Source: Bacteroidota bacterium (lineage in GTDB: Bacteria > Bacteroidota > Bacteroidia > B-17B0 > Aurantibacillaceae). From it: a stretch of 51,884 bases of DNA. Location: contig JACQAK010000016.1 in assembly GCA_016194985.1 (NCBI GenBank), forward strand, positions 1 to 51,884, given 5' to 3'. Both the position numbers and the translations under genes were made by a program. Below, piece after piece: positions 14,833-51,884 of the stretch (its first letter is position 1; every line of letters starts with the position of its first letter). Under the pieces are notes generated by a model that worked only from the letters and a program-made list of their open reading frames with translations, was not told the origin of the DNA and did no database searches.

Positions 14833-16944
14833 TTAGGCCGATTTATTTTTACGAAACAGATTTGATAATTTATTTTTGGAAGCTTTATCAAATTCTTCAC
14901 CATATCCATATCCGTAACCATACCCGTATCCGTAACCGTACCCATATCCGTAAGTTGAATTGGATATTTTAACAGAGTTGAATATAATTCCAAGGTTATT
15001 TATTTTTTTCTCGTTAAATAATTTATTGATAAATTTTAAATGATGTTTTCTGGTTACGTTTTGTCTCACAATATAAATGGACGCGTCAACATGTTTGGAT
15101 ATTTCCAAACCATCTGTTACAAGTCCTATAGGTGGTGTGTCTACAATCACGTAATCATAATTTTGCCTTAGATAGTCAAAAAGCTTGGCAAGTTTTTCTT
15201 TTAAAATCAATTCAGATGGATTTGGAGGAATAGGGCCGGATAAGATAATATCCAATTGTGGCAGGGCTACTGAGTTTTGAATAACTTCACTAATTTGAGA
15301 TGTTCCTGCCAGATAATTAGACATCCCATTGTCCATGTTTAAATTAACTCCTGCAACAATCTTTGGTTTTCTTAAATCCAGACAAACCAGTACGGTTTTT
15401 TTCTCAGAAGATGCAATAATACCAGCCAGATTATAAGAAACAAATGTTTTCCCTTCCCCACTGATAGAAGAAGTTACCATAATCACATTTTGTTTTTTTT
15501 CTTCGTTAGCATTACTTAAAAAATAATTAATGTTTGTTCGGATAGAGCGTAAAGCTTCGAGTATGATAGGCTTTGGTTTTTTCTCGGTAAACAGATTGGT
15601 GTCTTCAGGATTTTTTCCAATAATACCAATAATTGGAATCCTGGTATAACTTTCCAGTGTTTCTTTATCAGTGATCTTATCGTTCAGTAGTTCAAGCATC
15701 GAAATGATCAGTATCGGGATAAGAATGGCTAATACAATAGCGATCGCATATGATTTACTTTTGATAGGTTTGATAGGACTATAAGAAGGAACTGCTTTAT
15801 CTATCACCCAGTTATCTGAAGTTGCTGATGCAAGTACTATAGCAGTTTCCGATCTTTTTTGTAAAAGATATAAGTATAAACCTTCTTTGATTGAGAACTG
15901 GCGTTTGATCCCGATTAATTCGATTTCTGTTTTAGGAATTGAATCTAACTTTCCTTCTACACGGGATAAATTAGAATTCATTTCTTTCAAACTCATTTGG
16001 TATTTTTGTTTAACGCTTTTTAAATTTTCCAAAATGGCTTGCTTGGTATATTTAATCTGCTTGTCCAGATTTTCAAAAACGGGGCTGTTTGGTTTGGAGT
16101 CAACCTGACGAAGGCTATACTCATTTTCCAGTTCGCTTAAATTACCGATTAGTTTAATTAATAAAGGATCATCCAGTCCTAAGCTGGTAGGAGCCATATC
16201 GTTGATCTTTTTATTATCTGTAATATATTTTTCGATGTAATCAATAAAGCTGATCTGAACTTTATTTTCGGAAATTTTCTCGTCAAAATTTTTCACCCGC
16301 TCTAAAAACGATTTCGATTCATCATCAATATTGACAATTCCTTTTTTGGTTTGAAAGTCGAGTAAGGTTTTCTCTATTTCTTTTAATTCACCGGATATTT
16401 GGGCTATCTGAGAGTCAATAAATTTTAAGGAGTTACTGGCTAATAAATTTTCCTGTTCAGAACTATTAAGGATATAGACTTCTGTTAGCTTATTTAAAAA
16501 ATCGGAACAAGCCTCAGGAACCGCATCTACAATACTGAGTTCAAGAATAGAGGAACCGGAAGTAGCAATTCCTACATTTAAAGAAGCTGAATAATAATCG
16601 GCCAGATTTTCGATCGAATTAAAAATCGCACGGTATTGTTTTTTATTATAGGATGGATTATTGAATAAGGAATTGTCGAACGTAGGTCTTTTATTAACGG
16701 TGAACTCTCCCAGATCGTTGATGATTTTTTCTCCAAACTTATAGGTTACAGGACTGCTCGCATCTTTGTTGTTTATTTTGTAAGACATTTGAAAAGAATT
16801 CTGATCTAAAATAGTAATGCTCAGGTCTGCAAAATAAGCAAGTTCATTAAGTGTATCGGGTTTAATAACAAACGGGGATTTATTATATAACTCAGTAGAC
16901 TTAATTTTACCTACCAATAAATAAGAAACATTTAATTCTAACAA
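14833..16944 (-). CDS. Wzc-like polysaccharide co-polymerase / BY-kinase, main part (frame-split)
   Basis: This 703-codon frame encodes most of a Wzc-type polysaccharide co-polymerase and autophosphorylating tyrosine kinase. It has a long periplasmic coiled-coil region (about residues 150-370), a second membrane helix (SYAIAIVLAILIPILIISML, about residue 400) and a cytoplasmic kinase. Walker A is TSSISGEGKTF, Walker A' is VLVCLDLRKPK and Walker B is YVIVDTPPIG. The C-terminus has nine YG pairs, a rich tyrosine cluster for autophosphorylation. The family controls chain length and export. The frame can start only at TTG 16944 and lacks the first membrane helix, which is encoded just upstream in another frame (16938-17117). 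Confidence 0.85.
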   Translation of the reverse strand: MLELNVSYLLVGKIKSTELYNKSPFVIKPDTLNELAYFADLSITILDQNSFQMSYKINNKDASSPVTYKFGEKIINDLGEFTVNKRPTFDNSLFNNPSYNKKQYRAIFNSIENLADYYSASLNVGIATSGSSILELSIVDAVPEACSDFLNKLTEVYILNSSEQENLLASNSLKFIDSQIAQISGELKEIEKTLLDFQTKKGIVNIDDESKSFLERVKNFDEKISENKVQISFIDYIEKYITDNKKINDMAPTSLGLDDPLLIKLIGNLSELENEYSLRQVDSKPNSPVFENLDKQIKYTKQAILENLKSVKQKYQMSLKEMNSNLSRVEGKLDSIPKTEIELIGIKRQFSIKEGLYLYLLQKRSETAIVLASATSDNWVIDKAVPSYSPIKPIKSKSYAIAIVLAILIPILIISMLELLNDKITDKETLESYTRIPIIGIIGKNPEDTNLFTEKKPKPIILEALRSIRTNINYFLSNANEEKKQNVIMVTSSISGEGKTFVSYNLAGIIASSEKKTVLVCLDLRKPKIVAGVNLNMDNGMSNYLAGTSQISEVIQNSVALPQLDIILSGPIPPNPSELILKEKLAKLFDYLRQNYDYVIVDTPPIGLVTDGLEISKHVDASIYIVRQNVTRKHHLKFINKLFNEKKINNLGIIFNSVKISNSTYGYGYGYGYGYGYGYGYGEEFDKASKNKLSNLFRKNKSA
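14899..14952 (-). repeat. Nine-copy Tyr-Gly hexanucleotide repeat in the Wzc tail
   Basis: On the minus strand 18 codons alternate TAY and GGN, giving nine consecutive Tyr-Gly pairs just before EEFDKAS. Third positions vary (TAC/TAT; GGA/GGT/GGG), so it is a diverged hexanucleotide repeat and not a fresh slippage tract. It forms the tyrosine cluster of the BY-kinase. Confidence 0.95.
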
Positions 16945-43541: not shown

Positions 43542-44967
43542 ACGAACAATATATAAGTATGTAGGCATAGCCTGCATATCGGTAACGTTTTTGGCCTGTA
43601 AAAATCTGGCCATCGTTAATAAAAAAGAGAACAAAACAGTTCCTGAGAGCTACAATAATTCGAAAGACAGTGTTAATACCGCGCAAACAAAGTGGAAGGA
43701 TTTTTTTAAAGATCCTCAACTGGCGGCATTGATTGATTCTGCCTTGAAAAAAAATCAGGAGTTAAATATTGTTTTACAGGAGATACAAATTGCTAAAAAT
43801 GATGTAAGAGCAAGAAGAGGGGCTTTTTTACCCTTTATGAATGCCGGATTAGGAGCAGGAGTAGAGAAGGTAGGCAGATATACCAGTCAGGGAGCAAGTG
43901 ATGCTACTAACGAGATCATGCCGGGAAAAGCGTTTCCTGATCCTTTACAGAATTATGTATTTGGTGTTAATGTGTCCTGGGAGATCGATATCTGGAAAAA
44001 ACTTCGTAATGCCAAAAAAGCAGCTTTATACAAATACCTGTCAACGGTTGAAGGTAAAAACTTTATGGTTACTCATCTGATCTCTGAAATAGCCAATTCT
44101 TATTACGAATTGGTAGCCCTCGATAATCAGTTGGAGATCCTGAAAAAAAATATTGAGTTGTATCAAAGTTCGCTTGAGATTGTAAAATTAGAGAAGCAAT
44201 CTGCCAGAGTAACTGAATTAGCCGTAAGAAGATTTGAAGCAGAGGTACTGAAAACACAAAGCCGTCAGTATTATATTATGCAGCAAATTACGGAAACAGA
44301 AAATCGAATTAATTTTCTGGTAGGTAGATTCCCTCAAACAGTTGCCAGAAATTCTCAGAATTTTACGGATTTGGTTATTGACTCTATTCATTCGGGAGTT
44401 CCCTCTCAGTTATTATCCAATCGTACAGATATAAAACAAGCCGAGCAAGCTCTGATAGCAGCCAAACTGGATGTAAAAGTCGCAAAAGCGGAGTTTTATC
44501 CTTCGTTTGTTATTACTGCCGGTGCCGGGTATCGCGCTTTTAACCCGCAATATCTGATACAAACGCCTCAATCGTTGTTGTATAATCTGGCAGGCGATTT
44601 AGTTGCACCACTGATTAACAGAAATGCTATTAAGGCCAATTTCTATTCGGCTAATTCAAAACAGGTTCAGGCAGTTTATAACTACGAACGTGCTATTTTA
44701 AGAGCACATATCGAAGTAGTAAATCAGTTATCCAATATCAGTAACCTGAAAAAGAGCTATGACCTGAAAGATAAGCAGGTAAAGGCTTTAACACAGTCTA
44801 TCGATATTTCTACAACCTTATTTAAATCGGCCAGAGCTGATTATATGGAAGTGTTATTAACGCAACGAGATGCTTTGGAATCGAAAATTGAACTGATTGA
44901 AACCAAAAAGCAACAAATGAATGCTTTGGTAAATATTTATCAGGCATTAGGGGGCGGATGGAGATAG
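43531..44967 (+). CDS. TolC/OprM-type outer-membrane efflux lipoprotein
   Basis: I place the start at ATG 43531, because MNTKRTIYKYVGIACISVTFLAC is a proper lipoprotein signal and the purine-rich sequence GAAGAGAAAGAAGAAG precedes it. ATG 43495 would add twelve basic residues. The mature protein has the two-fold repeat of outer-membrane factors. The first half begins WKDFFKDPQLAALIDSALKK, and the second contains SNRTDIKQAEQALIAAKLDV with FYPSFVITAGAGY. It forms the trimeric outer-membrane duct. It overlaps the permease gene by 11 bases and completes a full tripartite operon, closed by a terminator. Confidence 0.93.
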   Translation: MNTKRTIYKYVGIACISVTFLACKNLAIVNKKENKTVPESYNNSKDSVNTAQTKWKDFFKDPQLAALIDSALKKNQELNIVLQEIQIAKNDVRARRGAFLPFMNAGLGAGVEKVGRYTSQGASDATNEIMPGKAFPDPLQNYVFGVNVSWEIDIWKKLRNAKKAALYKYLSTVEGKNFMVTHLISEIANSYYELVALDNQLEILKKNIELYQSSLEIVKLEKQSARVTELAVRRFEAEVLKTQSRQYYIMQQITETENRINFLVGRFPQTVARNSQNFTDLVIDSIHSGVPSQLLSNRTDIKQAEQALIAAKLDVKVAKAEFYPSFVITAGAGYRAFNPQYLIQTPQSLLYNLAGDLVAPLINRNAIKANFYSANSKQVQAVYNYERAILRAHIEVVNQLSNISNLKKSYDLKDKQVKALTQSIDISTTLFKSARADYMEVLLTQRDALESKIELIETKKQQMNALVNIYQALGGGWR

Positions 44968-44993
44968 TTTAGTAATCTTCTGCTACAAAAAAG

Positions 44994-45029
44994 GAGGCTA
45001 CTCATGATGGGTAGTCTCTTTTTATTTTT
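44994..45029 (+). terminator. Rho-independent terminator of the efflux operon
   Basis: GAGGCTACTC and GGGTAGTCTC form a 10-base-pair stem (two G-U pairs) with loop ATGAT, followed by the tract TTTTTATTTTT, 26 bases after the stop codon. Confidence 0.88.
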
Positions 45030-45107
45030 AGCATATACTATGGAGAGCTGCTTATTGTTTTCATCTTCCGAAATGTACGTTATCCTACAATAATTCCTTT
45101 CATAGCA

Positions 45108-45142
45108 AAAGAGCCTCTCAAATTAAATTTGAGAGGCTCTTT
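45108..45142. terminator. 35-base near-perfect palindrome, bidirectional terminator
   Basis: AAAGAGCCTCTCAAATT and AATTTGAGAGGCTCTTT are perfect 17-base arms around one A. It lies 79 bases beyond the efflux terminator and separates it from the minus-strand accessory genes, which would be read towards it. The 322-base gap to the next large gene otherwise holds a second hairpin and a short frame. Confidence 0.85.
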
Positions 45143-45150
45143 AATTTTTA

Positions 45151-45175
45151 ATAAGAGAATTAGGTATTCTCTTAT
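45151..45175. repeat. Inverted repeat at the edge of the accessory region
   Basis: ATAAGAGAAT-taggt-ATTCTCTTAT has perfect 10-base arms and lies immediately after the large palindrome and before a short orphan frame. It could be a boundary or recombination-site remnant. Confidence 0.6.
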
Positions 45176-45262
45176 GTGAACCCAGCTGACCAAATGTCCA
45201 ACCAAATGCTTGAAGAATTAAAGGTTTTATCTAATATTAAAGAGTTGATTAACAGAGGATAA
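45176..45262 (+). CDS. Short 28-residue frame, possible gene remnant
   Basis: GTG 45176 opens a frame reading NPADQMSNQMLEELKVLSNI and then KELINRG before TAA 45262. The residues look protein-like (amphipathic helix with Leu/Glu/Lys spacing) and run towards the stop of the convergent nuclease-like gene. It may be the tail of a gene cut by insertion of the accessory block, or chance. No ribosome-binding site is obvious. Confidence 0.25.
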   Translation: MNPADQMSNQMLEELKVLSNIKELINRG

Positions 45263-45289
45263 GGGGTATTGTTTCGATTTATATTAAGC

Positions 45290-46996
45290 TTATAATTTTG
45301 CTTCAGGAAAAAAATCTTTAATGACTTCAAGCATAAATGATGGATTACCTAAATCTTTTTTAATATTTTCTTGCATGTAGAATCTACTAAAAACTTCAAA
45401 TGGGGTTGTTGAAACATCTTTATTGGAAACATGAAGATGGAATTCATCAATCATTTTAAATAAATCCAATCTATTTTGCTTCAAATAGTCTTCATGCAAT
45501 TCAAAAAAACTGAGATTAATAAATGTAACATTTTTAACCTCAATTTTATTAAAACTTCTTTTAGCTAACTCCTCCCTGAATTTTTTATTAAGTATTTTAT
45601 TGACGCCTTCATATCCAAATGACAAATCTGTGTATATAACAATAGGGTATATTTCTATTTTCTCTAAATGTATTAAACTATCAAATTCAATCTGATTGTT
45701 TTCTATGTACTCGATACCATTCAATAATTGTCTTATTCCCTTTGGGTCTTTTTTTTGATTTTCATAAAACTTTGTATCAAGAGCAGAGTATAAACCGTCT
45801 TTTTCTCCTTTTTCCTTTACATCCGCACCAAGAAGAACATCTTTAAATTCTATTAAAGCAATTTTCTCATTTTTTCTCAAATAGTAATCTGAAATTTCAT
45901 TTTTATCTTTTTTTATTGCTTTATCTCCAGAAAACCCAATTAAGTGAGGAAAGCATTTTTCCATTATTAGCCTAAAATAAATGTCTTCCATGAACTCCTT
46001 ACCTTTTTCAGCAAGAAAGTTTCCTTTATACCCCTGATTTTTAATGTAATCTTTAAATGCAAAAATTTGGGCTTTGTAAAGTAAATCAATTAGAAAATTA
46101 ATATCCAGAAGAAAATAGATTAATTTTATTCCTCCTACTTCATAAAGGATGTGATTTCTTAACAATGAAAAATTTACATCAGCTTCATAGGAATTAATAA
46201 AAGGGTTTATTGCCAAAGTATTAATATAGGAAGTGTTTATAAATCCTTCCAAATTCCACAAAGGAATTATCTGATGTCGTTGTGCAATATCTCCAGTAAT
46301 ATTAACTTGAGTGAAAACAGTAAGTATATTATGAAATAGGTCATTACTGTTTTTAACTTTCAGTAACTTGTAATACCCCTCAATATATTGGGAATATTTT
46401 TCTGATTTTTCCAAATATTCAAAAAGCTTCACACCTCTGGTTAGTTGATTTGAAAAATCAGTAGTCGAAGTATAGTCCTTCTGATAAATAAAATTTGGGA
46501 GTATTATACTTTCTGTTTCTTCATTCTTTGCGGCCTCTTTTACTTCATTCTCACTAATTTTAAATCTATTGCTTGTTATGGTATTGATAATCAAATAAGC
46601 GTCAAGAACCCGTTTTGCTTCCTCATTTGTCAAATCCCTTGCTTTAAGGGAATTGTGTTTTTTGAAAATTAATTCATAAAACAACAAATTAGAATATCGC
46701 CATATAACAACAGGCCAATGCCCCTTATCCAGATGATTTTGAAATATGACTTTAAATCGTTCAATTGTATCTTCCCCTGCCTTAACGATTAAATTATTTA
46801 ATAGTTGAATCTGGATTTCATGCGCCTCAATACCTACATCTTTTAAATATAGTTTGATGTTAAATCCAGAAATATAAGAAATGAGTGTTACTGAAGGAAT
46901 ATCCTTTATTAAATCAAGAGCATCCTCCATTGATTTAGAAGAACCATAGACTTCATTATAGTCAATAATTACCTTTAATTGCATTCTTGTGTCCAT
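45290..46996 (-). CDS. Predicted PD-(D/E)XK nuclease-like protein of a putative defence cassette
   Basis: I do not recognise the full-length family of this 568-residue protein. Its C-terminal third carries what looks like a PD-(D/E)XK nuclease core: a helix with Glu (KGKEFMEDIYFRLIME, about residue 335), Asp370 in EISDYYLRKNEK, and the E-x-K pair Glu383/Lys385 in IALIEFKDVL. A helix with Gln follows (GIRQLLNGIEYI, Gln423). The first about 330 residues are alpha-rich with no known motif and may sense or bind a partner. Its gene begins 9 bases after the HEPN-like gene, so the two form one transcription unit. A DNA- or RNA-cutting defence role is inferred. Confidence 0.7.
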   Translation of the reverse strand: MDTRMQLKVIIDYNEVYGSSKSMEDALDLIKDIPSVTLISYISGFNIKLYLKDVGIEAHEIQIQLLNNLIVKAGEDTIERFKVIFQNHLDKGHWPVVIWRYSNLLFYELIFKKHNSLKARDLTNEEAKRVLDAYLIINTITSNRFKISENEVKEAAKNEETESIILPNFIYQKDYTSTTDFSNQLTRGVKLFEYLEKSEKYSQYIEGYYKLLKVKNSNDLFHNILTVFTQVNITGDIAQRHQIIPLWNLEGFINTSYINTLAINPFINSYEADVNFSLLRNHILYEVGGIKLIYFLLDINFLIDLLYKAQIFAFKDYIKNQGYKGNFLAEKGKEFMEDIYFRLIMEKCFPHLIGFSGDKAIKKDKNEISDYYLRKNEKIALIEFKDVLLGADVKEKGEKDGLYSALDTKFYENQKKDPKGIRQLLNGIEYIENNQIEFDSLIHLEKIEIYPIVIYTDLSFGYEGVNKILNKKFREELAKRSFNKIEVKNVTFINLSFFELHEDYLKQNRLDLFKMIDEFHLHVSNKDVSTTPFEVFSRFYMQENIKKDLGNPSFMLEVIKDFFPEAKL

Positions 46997-47005
46997 CGTT
47001 TTTTT

Positions 47006-48199
47006 TTAATAATTAAAGTGTTTTTCTAATTCTGGATTAAAATAATGCAAATCAAAAACGTTATATCTAATATAATAATCACACGTATAGCATTTTAACC
47101 ATTCAATATCATTATTCTGCGGCATGTCGAGGTCTTTACCCAAAATAGTATAATGAACTAATGAATTAACGTTGCAGCAGGGGCAAATCTTAATTTCTTT
47201 AGCATTTTTATGATTCTTTTTTTCAGCTAATGCAAATCGTTTTCCCCTGCCAAAAATATCATTGTAATTGTATTCGTATGCAGAACGATTGTTTCTTAGT
47301 GCATTATTCATTTTCATATTTGCCCTACCCAATTCCTTTAAATGTCCAATACAAAGAAGAGCGTTATACGTTTCATTTATTTTATTTTCCGTTTTAGAGT
47401 TTCTTAATTTAAACCCTATATTAAGCATAGAAGTTAAAATTTCTATACCGGAAATAGTCTTTGTAAAATATAACCAGTCAGAAGGAATTGTTGGTTCGGA
47501 AGCTAAAATTTTATTAGCTATCGGAATTACTCTCTGAGTTATAATGAAATCTAAGAATCGAAGTCTTGGCAGTTTATTGCCATCATGTAAAATATTATCT
47601 CTATACCAATTGAGAAATTCTAATGTTGCTTTAAAATCATTGTCATCAAGGAATTGAAAATTTTTATAGACTTTTGAAAATCTTTTTACTATCGCATGGT
47701 TTTTTTTAGTAGGGTCATTTGAGTAATTTATCAAATCATAAAATCGGTTGATAGTTTCTCTAAATGGAATTTTATGGATTCTTTTACCATCAGGTCTATT
47801 TGGTACAAATCTTTTATTTTTTATTTTATCGAGCATCATCCATGTTGAGTTAGATTTATTTCTGTAATGCTCTTTATAGGTGAGTTTGGGATTCGTTTTG
47901 CTAAGAATATCTTTTAGGAAAAGTTCAAAAAATCTTTCAAAAGCAACTAAACATAGAACTGTATTTTCTACGTCCAGAAATTGACTTTCAAGAATTTTTA
48001 AATTTTTTTTAATTGTAGTAGATGTTGAGCTTATATAGAAATCATAAGATTCATTTTTTGTTTGAAAGGTATTAAAATAGAATCCAAAAGCATCTCTTAG
48101 TGAACTGTAAAAATGGGCGGGCTTGGATTTATGCCCAGCATGGTCATCAATTCTTACTTCATTCTTTGCAGCCAGATTTTTTAATTGTTTCAAATCCAT
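47006..48199 (-). CDS. HEPN-like protein with C-terminal zinc ribbon
   Basis: The 397-residue protein is mostly alpha-helical. WYRDNILHDGNKLP contains R-x4-H (Arg200-His205), the active-site motif of HEPN ribonuclease domains, preceded by a helix-rich region such as ENTVLCLVAFERFFELFLKD. The C-terminus has a zinc ribbon: Cys339 and Cys342 in CPCC, then Cys370 and Cys373 in CYTC. A helical region of unknown function lies between (about residues 210-330). HEPN proteins usually cleave RNA in toxin-antitoxin and defence systems. It directly precedes the nuclease-like gene in the same unit. The HEPN call is from the motif and needs a profile search. Confidence 0.65.
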   Translation of the reverse strand: MDLKQLKNLAAKNEVRIDDHAGHKSKPAHFYSSLRDAFGFYFNTFQTKNESYDFYISSTSTTIKKNLKILESQFLDVENTVLCLVAFERFFELFLKDILSKTNPKLTYKEHYRNKSNSTWMMLDKIKNKRFVPNRPDGKRIHKIPFRETINRFYDLINYSNDPTKKNHAIVKRFSKVYKNFQFLDDNDFKATLEFLNWYRDNILHDGNKLPRLRFLDFIITQRVIPIANKILASEPTIPSDWLYFTKTISGIEILTSMLNIGFKLRNSKTENKINETYNALLCIGHLKELGRANMKMNNALRNNRSAYEYNYNDIFGRGKRFALAEKKNHKNAKEIKICPCCNVNSLVHYTILGKDLDMPQNNDIEWLKCYTCDYYIRYNVFDLHYFNPELEKHFNY

Positions 48200-48275
48200 G
48201 ATGAATTATACTATATAGAGTTATCTAAATTTATACGAATATAATAAAAAGAAAGGTTGATGTTTTACAATATAA

Positions 48276-49100
48276 CTAATACACTTGCATTGTATCGACC
48301 TTGAATTCAGCATTATTAAGAGAGCAATCGAATATTTTAATTTTGGAATATTGTTTTTTTAATTCTTCAATCAATTTATGTTTTTCTTGTTGAGGCATTT
48401 TAGCACCTAAATAAATTTCTTTTAATCCCCATTCAGTTATATCCATAGATTTATTTACAAAATCCCTACTTATAAATCTATATTCTTTTTCATATTCCCA
48501 ATGCTTCGATTTTGTACACAGCAACTTTACAAAGAAAACTATCATATCTTCAAATAAGTCAATTTTTGGAATATCATCCGAATACATAACTTGATTTAAC
48601 GAGGGTTGAAAATTCTTAAAAATGAATTTTGTATCTAGCCCAATACAAAACCCTGTATGGCAATTAGCATAATGTGACCACATTAAAAGATTTGTAGGTT
48701 CGCTGGCTAAACTAACGATACCAAAGGTTTTATAGATATCCTTGTTAACATTATCCGAATAACGTTCTTGTAAAACTTTATCATTAATTGTACCAGCTAT
48801 CTGATGTTCATAGGAAATATTATGAATTTCAGTTTCACTCATTTGAGGGTACTGTTTTTTCAGCATTTGTGAATGTTTCAGAAAAATATTTTCTGGTGTC
48901 AATTGTTCTTGTTTATATTCAAAAGGAAGTGAAGCATCATAAGGGTCATTAAATTTGTCAGCCGATGTGAAATACAACTCCGTATTAAACAATAACCTTT
49001 TATGCCACTTATCTCCATAATCTCTATACTTATATAAAACTTCAGGCATCCCTGTTAAATTTTCATCTGCAAATCCTGTTATTAGTTTTTCCATTTTCAT
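48276..49100 (-). CDS. DUF2971-domain protein
   Basis: The 274-residue protein has the DUF2971 pattern. VLYKYRDYGDKWHKRLLFNT and LYFTSADKFNDPYDASLPF lie near the N-terminus. IVSLASEPTNLLMWSHYAN and HTGFCIGLD lie in the middle (about residue 140), and WEYEKEYRFISRD is further on. The biochemical role is unknown; members often occur near mobile elements and defence genes (my recollection). ATG 49100 lies only 11 bases past a strong terminator hairpin, so the internal ATG 49049 (MPEVLYKYRD) may be the true start. It lies 76 bases before the HEPN-like gene on the same strand. Confidence 0.82.
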   Translation of the reverse strand: MKMEKLITGFADENLTGMPEVLYKYRDYGDKWHKRLLFNTELYFTSADKFNDPYDASLPFEYKQEQLTPENIFLKHSQMLKKQYPQMSETEIHNISYEHQIAGTINDKVLQERYSDNVNKDIYKTFGIVSLASEPTNLLMWSHYANCHTGFCIGLDTKFIFKNFQPSLNQVMYSDDIPKIDLFEDMIVFFVKLLCTKSKHWEYEKEYRFISRDFVNKSMDITEWGLKEIYLGAKMPQQEKHKLIEELKKQYSKIKIFDCSLNNAEFKVDTMQVY

Positions 49101-49111
49101 TGTTTAAATTA

Positions 49112-49136
49112 AAAAGGCTGGATAAACCAGCCTTTT
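49112..49136 (-). terminator. Terminator between the basic peptide gene and the DUF2971 gene
   Basis: AAAAGGCTGG and CCAGCCTTTT form a perfect 10-base-pair stem with a 5-base loop; on the minus strand a run of T follows. It lies 6 bases after the 37-residue peptide gene and 11 bases before the DUF2971 start. Confidence 0.85.
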
Positions 49137-49142
49137 ATCAAA

Positions 49143-49256
49143 TTACTTTTTTGGTTTTGCAGGAGGGTTATTACCACGTCCTTTGCCTGATGAATTTCCT
49201 GTTTGGCTTGGGCCATTTTTCACAGGAGGTTTTGAAGTTGAAGCTGTTTTTGCCAT
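49143..49256 (-). CDS. 37-residue basic, Pro/Ser/Gly/Lys-rich peptide
   Basis: ATG 49256 opens 37 codons ending at TAA 49145-49143. The peptide begins MAKTASTSKPPVKNGPSQTG and ends GKGRGNNPPAKPKK. It has no hydrophobic segment and a high positive charge, so it probably binds nucleic acid or is intrinsically disordered. I recall near-identical short peptides from other Bacteroidota mobile elements, but cannot confirm this. It is 68 bases after the ATPase gene and followed at once by a strong terminator, supporting a real gene. Confidence 0.7.
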   Translation of the reverse strand: MAKTASTSKPPVKNGPSQTGNSSGKGRGNNPPAKPKK

Positions 49257-49324
49257 TTTTAATTTATTTATTCTAGTAAATTTAGAAAAAACGTTTCATT
49301 TTTCAAACCCAACAAGAGGTTATT

Positions 49325-50857
49325 TTACGCTGCTTCTCGATATTCCAACTCCTCAAATATCCGCATTTCCCCTCCCTGATTAAACCTACCATTTTGAACC
49401 GCTAAACCCTTTTCTGGCACTTGGATAACCACATCCACATCATGCTGGAACTCATTCGCCCCTCTGAAATTTCCCTCCTTAGTGGTCTGGAAGATGTAAA
49501 TAAACGATTTTGAGGGATAATTACTTCTTAACGTTTCAAGGTCGCCAGTAGATAAGCCAAGCTTATTGACACTATCAAAAAAGATAAAGTCATAAGGCGT
49601 TAAATCACTGGGAATTTCTTCCGCTACAAATAAGTTAGGATGCGCCACGTCTTTTGCTTTTAACTTATCCTGTAAAGTCATATCCAAACCCTCCTCTTTA
49701 GCCACATAAAGAACGTTACCATGATTTCTGGCTAAATATCCAGCGAAGTCCACACAAAGAAATGATTTACCCATTTTCGGTTTACCATACACCATGACAC
49801 TAAAACCCTTTGACGGATCTCCTATCAGTTTACGATACTTGCCTACAAAACCTAACGTTTTAAATTGCACGTTTCTAAAATCCATGCTACTCATAACGCC
49901 AGGAATTTCGTTCACAGGGTTTGCCGTTTCTTCTATTGCATTCACTTCCTCAATCCCCTCTAATCCATTAACTTCACAAGCGCAACCCAATACGCCATTT
50001 AAACCATTTAATTCTGTTTGCTGGATGCTCAATATTTTTTGAGATTTATTTTTAACGTATGCGTTAAGGTTGGCAAACATGGTATCTAATAACTTAGCAT
50101 ACTTATCAGTCTTGGTTACTTTTTTCAACTTAGATGCACGTTGCATAGCATCCATTAATAATTTAGCTTTATCCTTAACGTTGTATTTACCATTTAAGTT
50201 AATGTAACGTTTAATCAGGTTAACGGACGGCATAACCTTTTCTTGCATAATCAAGCTCTTAAATTCTAAAATAGTTTTCTCGCCAATCTCAACGGTTAGA
50301 GCTTTTGTCATGGCATTATACGTTTTCACAAGCTTGTCTTGCATGTACTCAATTTGTTTAGAGTAAGGCGAAGATTTACGCACTTTCTTTTCAATTATGG
50401 CACGGTGTAAAGCATTGATAAAACGTAACAAATCTTCTTTTGTTTTTTTCTTGCCATTCATGGAGATATAACGTTTCATAAAACGAATTTCTTCAGGGAT
50501 GCGTTCCACAAAAGAATAATCCATATCGTCATCATGGCTCTCAGGCTGAACAGCTTTATGGATTGGTGTTTTTCGTTGTACAGGCGTTTTTGTTTCTGCC
50601 TTTCTTTCTGGTTCAGAATGTTCCACCAGTGCAATAGTAGTTTTACCTTTAATCGGGTGCTTTTGTAAATGCTCATCCAGTTTGGCGAAATAAGCATCCA
50701 TCACACGTTTGATGGTTTCGTTTTTATGGTAAGCATCCCAATTACTATAATTCTCAGAAGATTTCTGAACGAAGTCATGCCCCTTCCAAAAGGTAACAGG
50801 CAGTTGAGAAAAGTTAATGCCTTTAACGGTGTCTTTATAATTTTCAATGGTTATCAT
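49325..50857 (-). CDS. RecA/RepA-like ATPase of a mobile element with a duplicated helical module
   Basis: The 510-residue protein starts ITIENYKDTVKGINFSQLPV. A helical module occurs twice, at about residues 123-177 (FMKRYISMNGKKKTKEDLLR) and about 211-265 (LIKRYINLNGKYNVKDKAKL). From about residue 345 a P-loop ATPase follows with Walker A VYGKPKMGKSFLC (about 357-368), a Walker B-like FIFFDSVNKLGL (about 430), and sensor-like FIYIFQTTKEGNF. It resembles AAA_25/RepA-like DNA-handling ATPases found in integrated elements of the phylum. DNA replication or mobilisation of the element is inferred. It follows the partial gene upstream with a 19-base gap. Confidence 0.75.
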   Translation of the reverse strand: MITIENYKDTVKGINFSQLPVTFWKGHDFVQKSSENYSNWDAYHKNETIKRVMDAYFAKLDEHLQKHPIKGKTTIALVEHSEPERKAETKTPVQRKTPIHKAVQPESHDDDMDYSFVERIPEEIRFMKRYISMNGKKKTKEDLLRFINALHRAIIEKKVRKSSPYSKQIEYMQDKLVKTYNAMTKALTVEIGEKTILEFKSLIMQEKVMPSVNLIKRYINLNGKYNVKDKAKLLMDAMQRASKLKKVTKTDKYAKLLDTMFANLNAYVKNKSQKILSIQQTELNGLNGVLGCACEVNGLEGIEEVNAIEETANPVNEIPGVMSSMDFRNVQFKTLGFVGKYRKLIGDPSKGFSVMVYGKPKMGKSFLCVDFAGYLARNHGNVLYVAKEEGLDMTLQDKLKAKDVAHPNLFVAEEIPSDLTPYDFIFFDSVNKLGLSTGDLETLRSNYPSKSFIYIFQTTKEGNFRGANEFQHDVDVVIQVPEKGLAVQNGRFNQGGEMRIFEELEYREAA

Positions 50858-50876: not shown

Positions 50877-51884
50877 TTATATCAATTCTAATTCAAGGAT
50901 TAAGGCTTCAGCTTCTAATTCTAAAATGCGGATGCGCTCCACATCTATGTCGTTATCCTCTGGCGGTAACACAATTTTTTTTCGAGTGGAAATTTTGACG
51001 GTATCGCTTTTAACTAAGGATAATTGGTTCATTCCAATAGCCACACTTACTCCGAATTTGTTTTGCAGAATGGTGGCAAAGGCTTCAATATTTTCTTTTG
51101 GTAAATAGCCCGCCATTTTATCTGATGCTTTCTCAAACATACCTTTAGTAAGCAATGCCATTAAATCCTTATCTGTATAAATATCCCCACCTCTGGAGCG
51201 AGATAATGGCACAATGATTCTGTATTTATCCCCAGCTTCAAAAAATGCAATCTCATTTGATGCGTACATCGCAGAACCATTACTCATGGATTTTAATAAT
51301 GGCAAGGCTTTGATAATCGGAACAGTAATTTTGCGTTGTCCCATATCTTTAGGTTGCCATTCCTCTGGCATTAAAATACCTTTCTTGGTTTGTCCCTCTT
51401 GTGTTGTATAGCTTACTAATTTTCCGCTCTCCGTTCCAAAGGCTTGTAAGAGGTTGCCAGTAATGATGTAACGAATCCCTCTGTCTTTGGTTTTTTGTTT
51501 GATTTCATTATCCCATTCCATCAATAAATCCTCTTGCGACATTTCTTTGTTATCCATACTCGCTGCCATGATTTTAGAAATGCCCTCATTAAAACTGGCT
51601 GGCATAGCGATATACTTGTTACTACTGGCGATTGCTAAACGAACTTTAATAGCACTAGGTGCATACGGATTTTTCTTTTTCTTATCAATCATTACACCCA
51701 AGCTAACCGCAAAAATGGTTTCCTGCCCATTATCAAATGTGAATACAGGATAAGATAATACTCTGCCTATCGTAAAGAAATTTAAAATACGTTGCAAATA
51801 TTCTTGCTTGTATTTGTAGCTTTTATGTAATTGTTCTACCGCTAATTTATGGGCAGCGTTTAATTCGGTTTCACGTTCCTTGAT
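50877..51884 (-). CDS. C-terminal part of a large mobile-element protein, 5' end off the window
   Basis: The frame is open through the window edge, so the coding sequence is partial. Its visible 335 codons begin IKERETELNAAHKLAVEQLH and continue KSYKYKQEYLQRILNFFTIG. TTG 51797 is not needed as a start. The sequence KVRLAIASSNKYIAMPASFN and the C-terminal coiled region rich in Glu/Leu resemble the ends of very large helicase/N6-methylase-type proteins of Bacteroidota mobile elements, as I recall them. No catalytic motif falls inside the visible part. It is followed by the ATPase gene with a 19-base gap, likely one operon. Confidence 0.6.
   Translation of the reverse strand: MKERETELNAAHKLAVEQLHKSYKYKQEYLQRILNFFTIGRVLSYPVFTFDNGQETIFAVSLGVMIDKKKKNPYAPSAIKVRLAIASSNKYIAMPASFNEGISKIMAASMDNKEMSQEDLLMEWDNEIKQKTKDRGIRYIITGNLLQAFGTESGKLVSYTTQEGQTKKGILMPEEWQPKDMGQRKITVPIIKALPLLKSMSNGSAMYASNEIAFFEAGDKYRIIVPLSRSRGGDIYTDKDLMALLTKGMFEKASDKMAGYLPKENIEAFATILQNKFGVSVAIGMNQLSLVKSDTVKISTRKKIVLPPEDNDIDVERIRILELEAEALILELELI

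Follow-up and report, generated by a model that had tools for sequence, protein, structure and literature searches.

Three neighbouring genes on the minus strand of a Bacteroidota contig raise the question of whether they make up one defence system or are separate genes that happen to share a mobile address. They lie near the right end of the window, by which we mean the whole stretch of DNA that was analysed (51,884 nucleotides, contig JACQAK010000016.1 of GenBank assembly GCA_016194985.1). A first reading, made from the letters alone and called here the sequence-only reading, had described a candidate defence cassette composed of a DUF2971 protein, a HEPN-like protein with a zinc ribbon and a protein with a PD-(D/E)XK-like core. 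Its three adjacent minus-strand open reading frames (ORFs) match the ORF calls exactly. We favour, with a probability of about 0.7, the view that the block at 45271-49322 is the exchangeable cargo of an integrative, phage-like element found in Bacteroidota and carries three independent defence-type genes. The features on which the argument turns are the following (aa, amino acids; GC, guanine plus cytosine; L059, a viral contig described below).

45290-46996, minus strand: gene 1, 568 aa; ORF call with a PD-(D/E)XK-type motif
47006-48199, minus strand: gene 2, 397 aa; ORF call with a HEPN-type motif and a C-terminal zinc-ribbon-like Cys4 motif
48276-49100, minus strand: gene 3, 274 aa, DUF2971; ORF call with Pfam, PADLOC and PHROG matches
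45271-49322: variable cargo block, 4.05 kb, 28.7% GC; delimited by blastn against L059 and by GC content
45175-45270: conserved segment at the element end; 96 bp, 81% identity with L059, E=2e-19
49325-50857, minus strand: element core gene, 510-aa protein with an ATPase domain; PHROG 6891 (ATPase), 5e-19
50877-51797, minus strand: C-terminal portion of a large protein of the element, whose gene continues past the window end; 93% DNA identity with L059

A swapped cargo block behind an ATPase gene

The search of viral contigs with gene 1 brought up IMGVR_UViG_3300043466_004445 (L058/L059) of IMG/VR; the element at the right end of the window is also present on this contig. In the blastn comparison, 93% identity extended for 2562 bp, starting at the window end and breaking off at the ATPase stop codon; homology resumed in the 96-bp segment, window positions 45270-45175 corresponding to L059 16062-16157. 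In the viral copy this segment stands 281 bp before the tyrosine integrase gene. Its last 31 or so bases are identical in the two sequences, and it is the probable edge of the element near a presumed attachment site. Since both flanks match L059 and the genes between them differ, the stretch 45271-49322 has been swapped: it is a cargo block in a slot that begins at the ATPase stop codon. In L059 the slot holds a relative of gene 1 (21% identical to gene 1 of the window), a DUF6602 protein and an M48-like peptidase. Base composition sets the block apart as well, its 28.7% GC standing against 36.4% in the chromosomal part and 37.3% in the element core; it is the GC minimum of the window, a value as low or lower occurring in one of 96 sliding windows.

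The element core shared with the viral contig bears out the mobile-element genes that the sequence-only reading had placed beside the cassette. The 510-aa ATPase is 97% identical in protein sequence to its viral counterpart, and the counterpart of 50877-51797 in L059 is a 1580-aa ORF that appears helicase/methylase-like by eye and matches PHROG 14770 (unknown function; 3.9e-74). Of ten element proteins scanned against PHROG, three matched lysis families (an amidase at 5e-47, endolysins); one lysis protein also weakly matched a tail protein with an endopeptidase domain (2e-5), one an endolysin filed under head/packaging (0.006), and none of the ten gave a clear capsid or terminase match. A row of proteins of 609, 197, 240, 127 and 174 aa in the viral contig (L111 14550-18867), with no PHROG match at 0.01, might represent structural genes of an unrecognised phage type.

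On the chromosomal side, the conserved genes predicted by the sequence-only reading are those of an RND efflux operon, recognised by eye from the ORF list. Similarity to five same-genus relatives breaks off near the TolC stop, at 44962-44969, which puts the insertion point somewhere between there and 45175. The attachment-site search of the own genome with 44965-45300 as the query returned the query itself, its own inverted hairpin at 45108-45142 and other matches no better than E=0.05. On the plus strand, the 45175-45270 segment is open in one frame in the window and could encode a short peptide, which might restore the end of a target gene.

The slot recurs. Matches to the ATPase gene were found in 32 of 100 relatives (own genome counted), and in the 20 regions fetched the genes behind it differ from copy to copy, as judged from ORF lists. 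Eight further copies (L090-L097) share the ATPase-side flank by DNA similarity; the second flank was matched in L059 only. The own genome contains a second copy of this kind of element (G000:C48:20204-21739, L092), with an ATPase 69% identical and other slot genes. When ten proteins from the slots of seven other copies were scanned with PADLOC, four copies (L090, L091, L093, L098) gave matches at E<=1e-40; the matched gene of L098 sits further downstream and on the other strand. The strong matches were as follows.

Slot of G047 (C44; L030/L090): single-chain SIR2-pAgo, 1051 aa, PADLOC E=0
Slot of G014: PDC-S60, 5e-128
Slot of G042: type IIG restriction enzyme, E=0, and an effector-like protein, 4e-17
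G096: helicase, 1e-45, and MzaC, 2e-27, in one protein

In G047, a gene 1 relative follows the SIR2-pAgo gene after 70 bp and is 80% identical to the gene 1 relative of the viral contig. The defence-cargo setting proposed by the sequence-only reading thus stands: the block occupies a slot whose content varies between copies of a mobile element, and other copies hold known defence genes there.

The cargo genes and their families

HEPN ribonucleases (RNases) have the catalytic motif R-x4-6-H with a polar residue after the arginine. Gene 2 contains R200-D-N-I-L-H205 and, further on, C339-x-C341-C342...C370-x2-C373. The pattern R[ND]xxxHxG was conserved in all 11 sequences covering the region (the window and 10 homologues) and CxCC...CxxC in 12 of 12, the added sequence being the decayed L055 copy with its in-frame stops; the L054 copy is split over two ORFs. 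By these motifs, gene 2 encodes a putative HEPN-type RNase with a zinc-ribbon-like C-terminus. In its AlphaFold model, helices 146-161, 169-185 and 187-204 mostly have block values of 76-94 for the predicted local distance difference test (pLDDT) and helix 213-234 has 55-68; the motif (200-207) lies at the end of a bundle helix, where pLDDT falls to about 55.

For gene 1, we aligned the window protein with 17 homologues that are 17-22% identical to it, the split L037 and partial L044 sequences being excluded. The signature D-x-Y-x-R...E-x-K was present in all 18, and the only invariant residues, in eight columns, were D370, Y372, R374, E383, K385, Q423, P451 and G464. We take D370, E383-x-K385 and Q423 to be the D, the E-x-K and the helix Q of a PD-(D/E)XK nuclease, and on these catalytic-type residues classify gene 1 as a putative nuclease of this type. 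The predicted elements (helix 332-348, strands 353-356, 370-375 and 378-384, helices 405-416 and 419-433, strand 447-455) follow an order that fits an alpha-beta-beta-beta-alpha-beta core, with block pLDDT values of 25-69 there; the N-terminal region of about 330 aa that precedes the nuclease-type core has no fold assigned. For both genes, the domain calls of the sequence-only reading were borne out by motif and not by fold.

Searches of Pfam, NCBIfam, PADLOC, PHROGs and the PDB sequences identified neither gene convincingly. The same was true of both family profiles against the PDB and of single members against Pfam (18 of gene 1; seven of gene 2, for which no Pfam HEPN model was matched). 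We took as noise the hits of gene 1 to RNase_H (Pfam, 0.028) and L_protein_N (2.7e-4, in one of 18 members) and set aside PHROG matches of 0.013-0.6 for the two genes on the same grounds. Gene 3, by comparison with Pfam, is a DUF2971 protein as the sequence-only reading had stated (PF11185, E=1.7e-10, 42.6 bits at a curated cut-off of 22); it also matches PADLOC PDC-S31 over nearly its full length (E=3.1e-76, 254.3 bits), a family that is itself a defence candidate only, and PHROG 1762 (E=1.8e-43).

Counting the own genome in each case, a single-sequence query located gene 1 homologues in 2 of 150 relatives, and an alignment query located them in 16 of 395 genomes of the class. They also occur in eight Hymenobacter plasmids, three of which were examined, and one viral contig, so that the 19 loci examined outside the window comprise 15 genomes, three plasmids and the viral contig. 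For gene 2, 3 of 150 relatives and 4 of 395 genomes of the class had a homologue, again with the own genome included; among 395 genomes of the phylum there were two, the own genome and a marginal one (9.5e-4) that was not counted further. Nine loci of named Bacteroidota metagenome-assembled genomes carry gene 2 homologues, none was confirmed in viral contigs and none was found in plasmids. The distinct gene 2 loci outside the window number 11 (G139, G340 and L049-L057, with L053 taken as G068 and L056 as G325).

Linkage, neighbourhoods and competing explanations

If the three genes formed one system, their homologues should keep company elsewhere, and the sequence-only reading had named the lack of conserved adjacency as the finding that would speak against its cassette. 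With family profiles run over the fetched loci, gene 1 was near none of the 11 gene 2 homologues and gene 2 near none of the 19 gene 1 homologues (short contigs L051 and L054 are included in these counts). Of the 11 gene 2 loci, one has a DUF2971 gene (L056, E=5e-11), a loose case at a distance of 3.7 kb, and the gene 1 loci have none; PDC-S31/DUF2971 otherwise accompanies genes 1 and 2 only here. This absent adjacency rules out a conserved three-gene system, and the cassette is the part of the sequence-only reading that is not borne out. Elsewhere the three travel independently, as stand-alone genes.

Known defence genes surround some of the homologues. The 11 gene 2 loci supplied 107 neighbour proteins, which matched 51 PADLOC families at E<=1e-15; the best 25 of these 51 include one protein each for JetA, JetB, JetC, JetD, AbiLi (2e-90), AriA, PDC-S31 and TnsB, the JetA-JetD matches being probably a run in L057, by length and position. 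The 87 neighbour proteins of 15 gene 1 loci matched 104 families, with PtuA/PtuB, Drt8 with RTasPDDEXK, pAgo and PDC-S01 among the best 25. Some gene 1 or gene 2 homologues thus have genes of Wadjet, AbiL, Septu, DRT8 or pAgo nearby. In L008, for instance, a Piwi gene is located on the opposite strand, about 0.9 kb past the gene 1 relative; since pAgo was seen near only 2 of 19 gene 1 loci, no general link between the two is indicated. In a control of 119 proteins from eight regions, 14 families were matched, none of them belonging to the systems found near genes 1 and 2. Since the scan hides which member matched, several models per gene inflate the counts and the control was hand-picked, these neighbourhoods lend support and are not a significance test. 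The defence-gene neighbourhoods that the sequence-only reading had suggested looking for are to this extent present, in contrast to the small control.

Several results weigh against our interpretation. The structure model of gene 1, built from two sequences only, is of low confidence (mean pLDDT 40), and so is the AlphaFold model of gene 2 (mean pLDDT 58), which is good mainly at residues 91-110 and 141-200. The fold search suggested in the sequence-only reading yielded nothing for gene 2, Foldseek returning 0 matches at E<=0.001; with the low-confidence model, this means that the HEPN membership of gene 2 rests on its motif. The slot scan, with its ten proteins from seven copies, left the slots of L094, L096, L097 and L108 outside, and within it PADLOC matches were weak in the viral contig (2e-4 and 6e-4) and in G058 (5e-6), while both proteins in the slot of the second copy in the own genome (G000 C48) had none, one of them being Exo_endo_phos by Pfam. 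The neighbourhood control is small, its places were hand-picked, and it too matched candidate families (PDC-M16A, PDC-M37B, PDC-S68, DolB, mad2), besides two RecD models. Finally, the integrase of the viral copy had no high-identity match in the own assembly, the best being partial, at 34% identity and E=5e-10.

The strongest rival to stand-alone genes pairs gene 2 with a nearby DNA nuclease: genes 2 and 1, with gene 3 optional, would be one cooperating system in which a HEPN-zinc-ribbon RNase and a DNA nuclease partner are made from one transcript. Genes 2 and 1 lie on the same strand with a 9-bp gap, a review of HEPN proteins reports repeated ties of restriction-modification-associated HEPN domains to DNases (PMC3710099), and at 4 of the 11 other gene 2 loci the adjoining gene encodes another predicted nuclease.

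L050: CoiA_nuc, 6e-8
L056: HNH, 1e-9
L053: DUF4365, 7e-34, convergent with gene 2
L046 6477-8321: protein of 615 aa without a Pfam match, in which a D...E-x-K motif was recognised by eye; 45 bp before the gene 2 homologue

These partner nucleases are mutually unrelated, none was recognised next door at the other seven loci, and genes 1 and 2 are absent from each other's loci as counted above; we consider such a joint system unlikely. A bolder variant, less probable again, would make gene 2 the founder of a modular system, a single family of HEPN-zinc-ribbon RNases combining with interchangeable DNA nucleases (PD-(D/E)XK here; CoiA-like, HNH or DUF4365 elsewhere) and the RNase acting as suicidal back-up of the DNase. 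We give still less credence to the idea that the cargo consists of toxins or element-maintenance genes, devoted to addiction or inter-element competition and not to phage defence as such. The genes do sit on a mobile element, and the HEPN review calls most members of the superfamily RNase toxins (PMC3710099); against this, no same-strand ORF of at least 60 aa that could serve as an antitoxin was found in the gap separating genes 1 and 2 or directly after them (shorter ORFs were not surveyed), and in other copies the slot is occupied by known defence genes. That the genes serve the element itself, in replication, excision or packaging, would fit their place directly behind the element core genes and is highly improbable, because the 93%-identical copy lacks genes 2 and 3 in its slot and has the gene 1 relative of about 21% identity together with unrelated genes instead, and other homologues reside on other kinds of sequence. 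Most likely, the cargo genes encode stand-alone effectors and not a joint system.

Flanking features, proposed action and significance

The remaining features of the locus concern its borders.

49112-49136, minus strand: terminator-like hairpin directly 5' of gene 3; folding energy -14.9 kcal/mol, z=-3.26
49143-49256, minus strand: 37-aa ORF, lysine/glycine-rich, within the cargo block; examined by tblastn
44989-45023 and 45108-45142, plus strand: two terminator-like hairpins on the chromosomal side, from the terminator scan

Of the location between terminators claimed by the sequence-only reading, the hairpins on both sides are there; the chromosomal pair is weak evidence by itself, with four sites in the region against 1.8 +/- 1.3 expected from shuffles. 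The hairpin at 49112-49136 was equalled by 4 of 200 shuffles and is missing from the terminator-scan list. For the 37-aa ORF, tblastn over the fetched loci returned the window's own copies only, and the gap between genes 3 and 2 measures 76 bp. Far from the cargo, at 14833-16944 of the window and beside polysaccharide genes (1-17 kb), lies what appears by eye to be a tyrosine-kinase-like exopolysaccharide protein with a long YG repeat tail.

We propose that copies of the element place different, often anti-phage, genes in the slot between the ATPase gene and the element end, and that the element would benefit when competing phages are excluded from its host. The folds, activation and targets of the cargo proteins, and the protection they may confer, are predictions. 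The gene 2 product may be a HEPN RNase that is kept inactive until infection and, once active, would cut RNA and stall translation; its zinc ribbon might bind nucleic acid or protein. Gene 1 may encode a metal-dependent PD-(D/E)XK nuclease that cuts invader or cell DNA, with its N-terminal region as a possible sensing part. Gene 3 is a defence candidate to which we assign no activity.

The core genes of the present element (the 510-aa ATPase and the 1580-aa protein) are presumably different from those of P2 and P4. The closest precedent is found in the hotspots of P2-like phages and P4-like satellites of E. coli, for which varying anti-phage genes are reported (PMC9122126); alike are the fixed place in a phage-like element and the difference in anti-phage genes between copies, whereas the present slot belongs to another phylum and another element and its defence role is predicted from its genes. 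Gene 2 shares the R-polar-xxx-H motif with HEPN superfamily RNases, and zinc-ribbon-fused HEPN domains in other families, as well as a frequent link of HEPN with DNases, are noted in the sections of the review drawn on here (PMC3710099); it differs in matching no Pfam HEPN model and in its C-terminal CxCC...CxxC, and it is not named in those sections. Nuclease-associated short pAgo systems (PMC10810196) resemble the G047 slot, where the gene 1 relative comes directly after the SIR2-pAgo gene; in the slot of the window there is no pAgo. In our literature search on DUF2971, HEPN/zinc-ribbon defence, PDC-S31, pAgo on mobile elements, prophage cargo, ApeA and satellite hotspots, neither gene 1 nor gene 2 was described, unnamed families being hard to find in this way.

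Genes 1 and 2 represent two nuclease-like families that are nameless in the libraries searched, have conserved catalytic-type residues, are of single-gene size and, in some of their members, have defence genes nearby. The gene for the 510-aa ATPase is a marker behind which related elements park defence genes, and the slot that follows it can therefore be mined for new systems.

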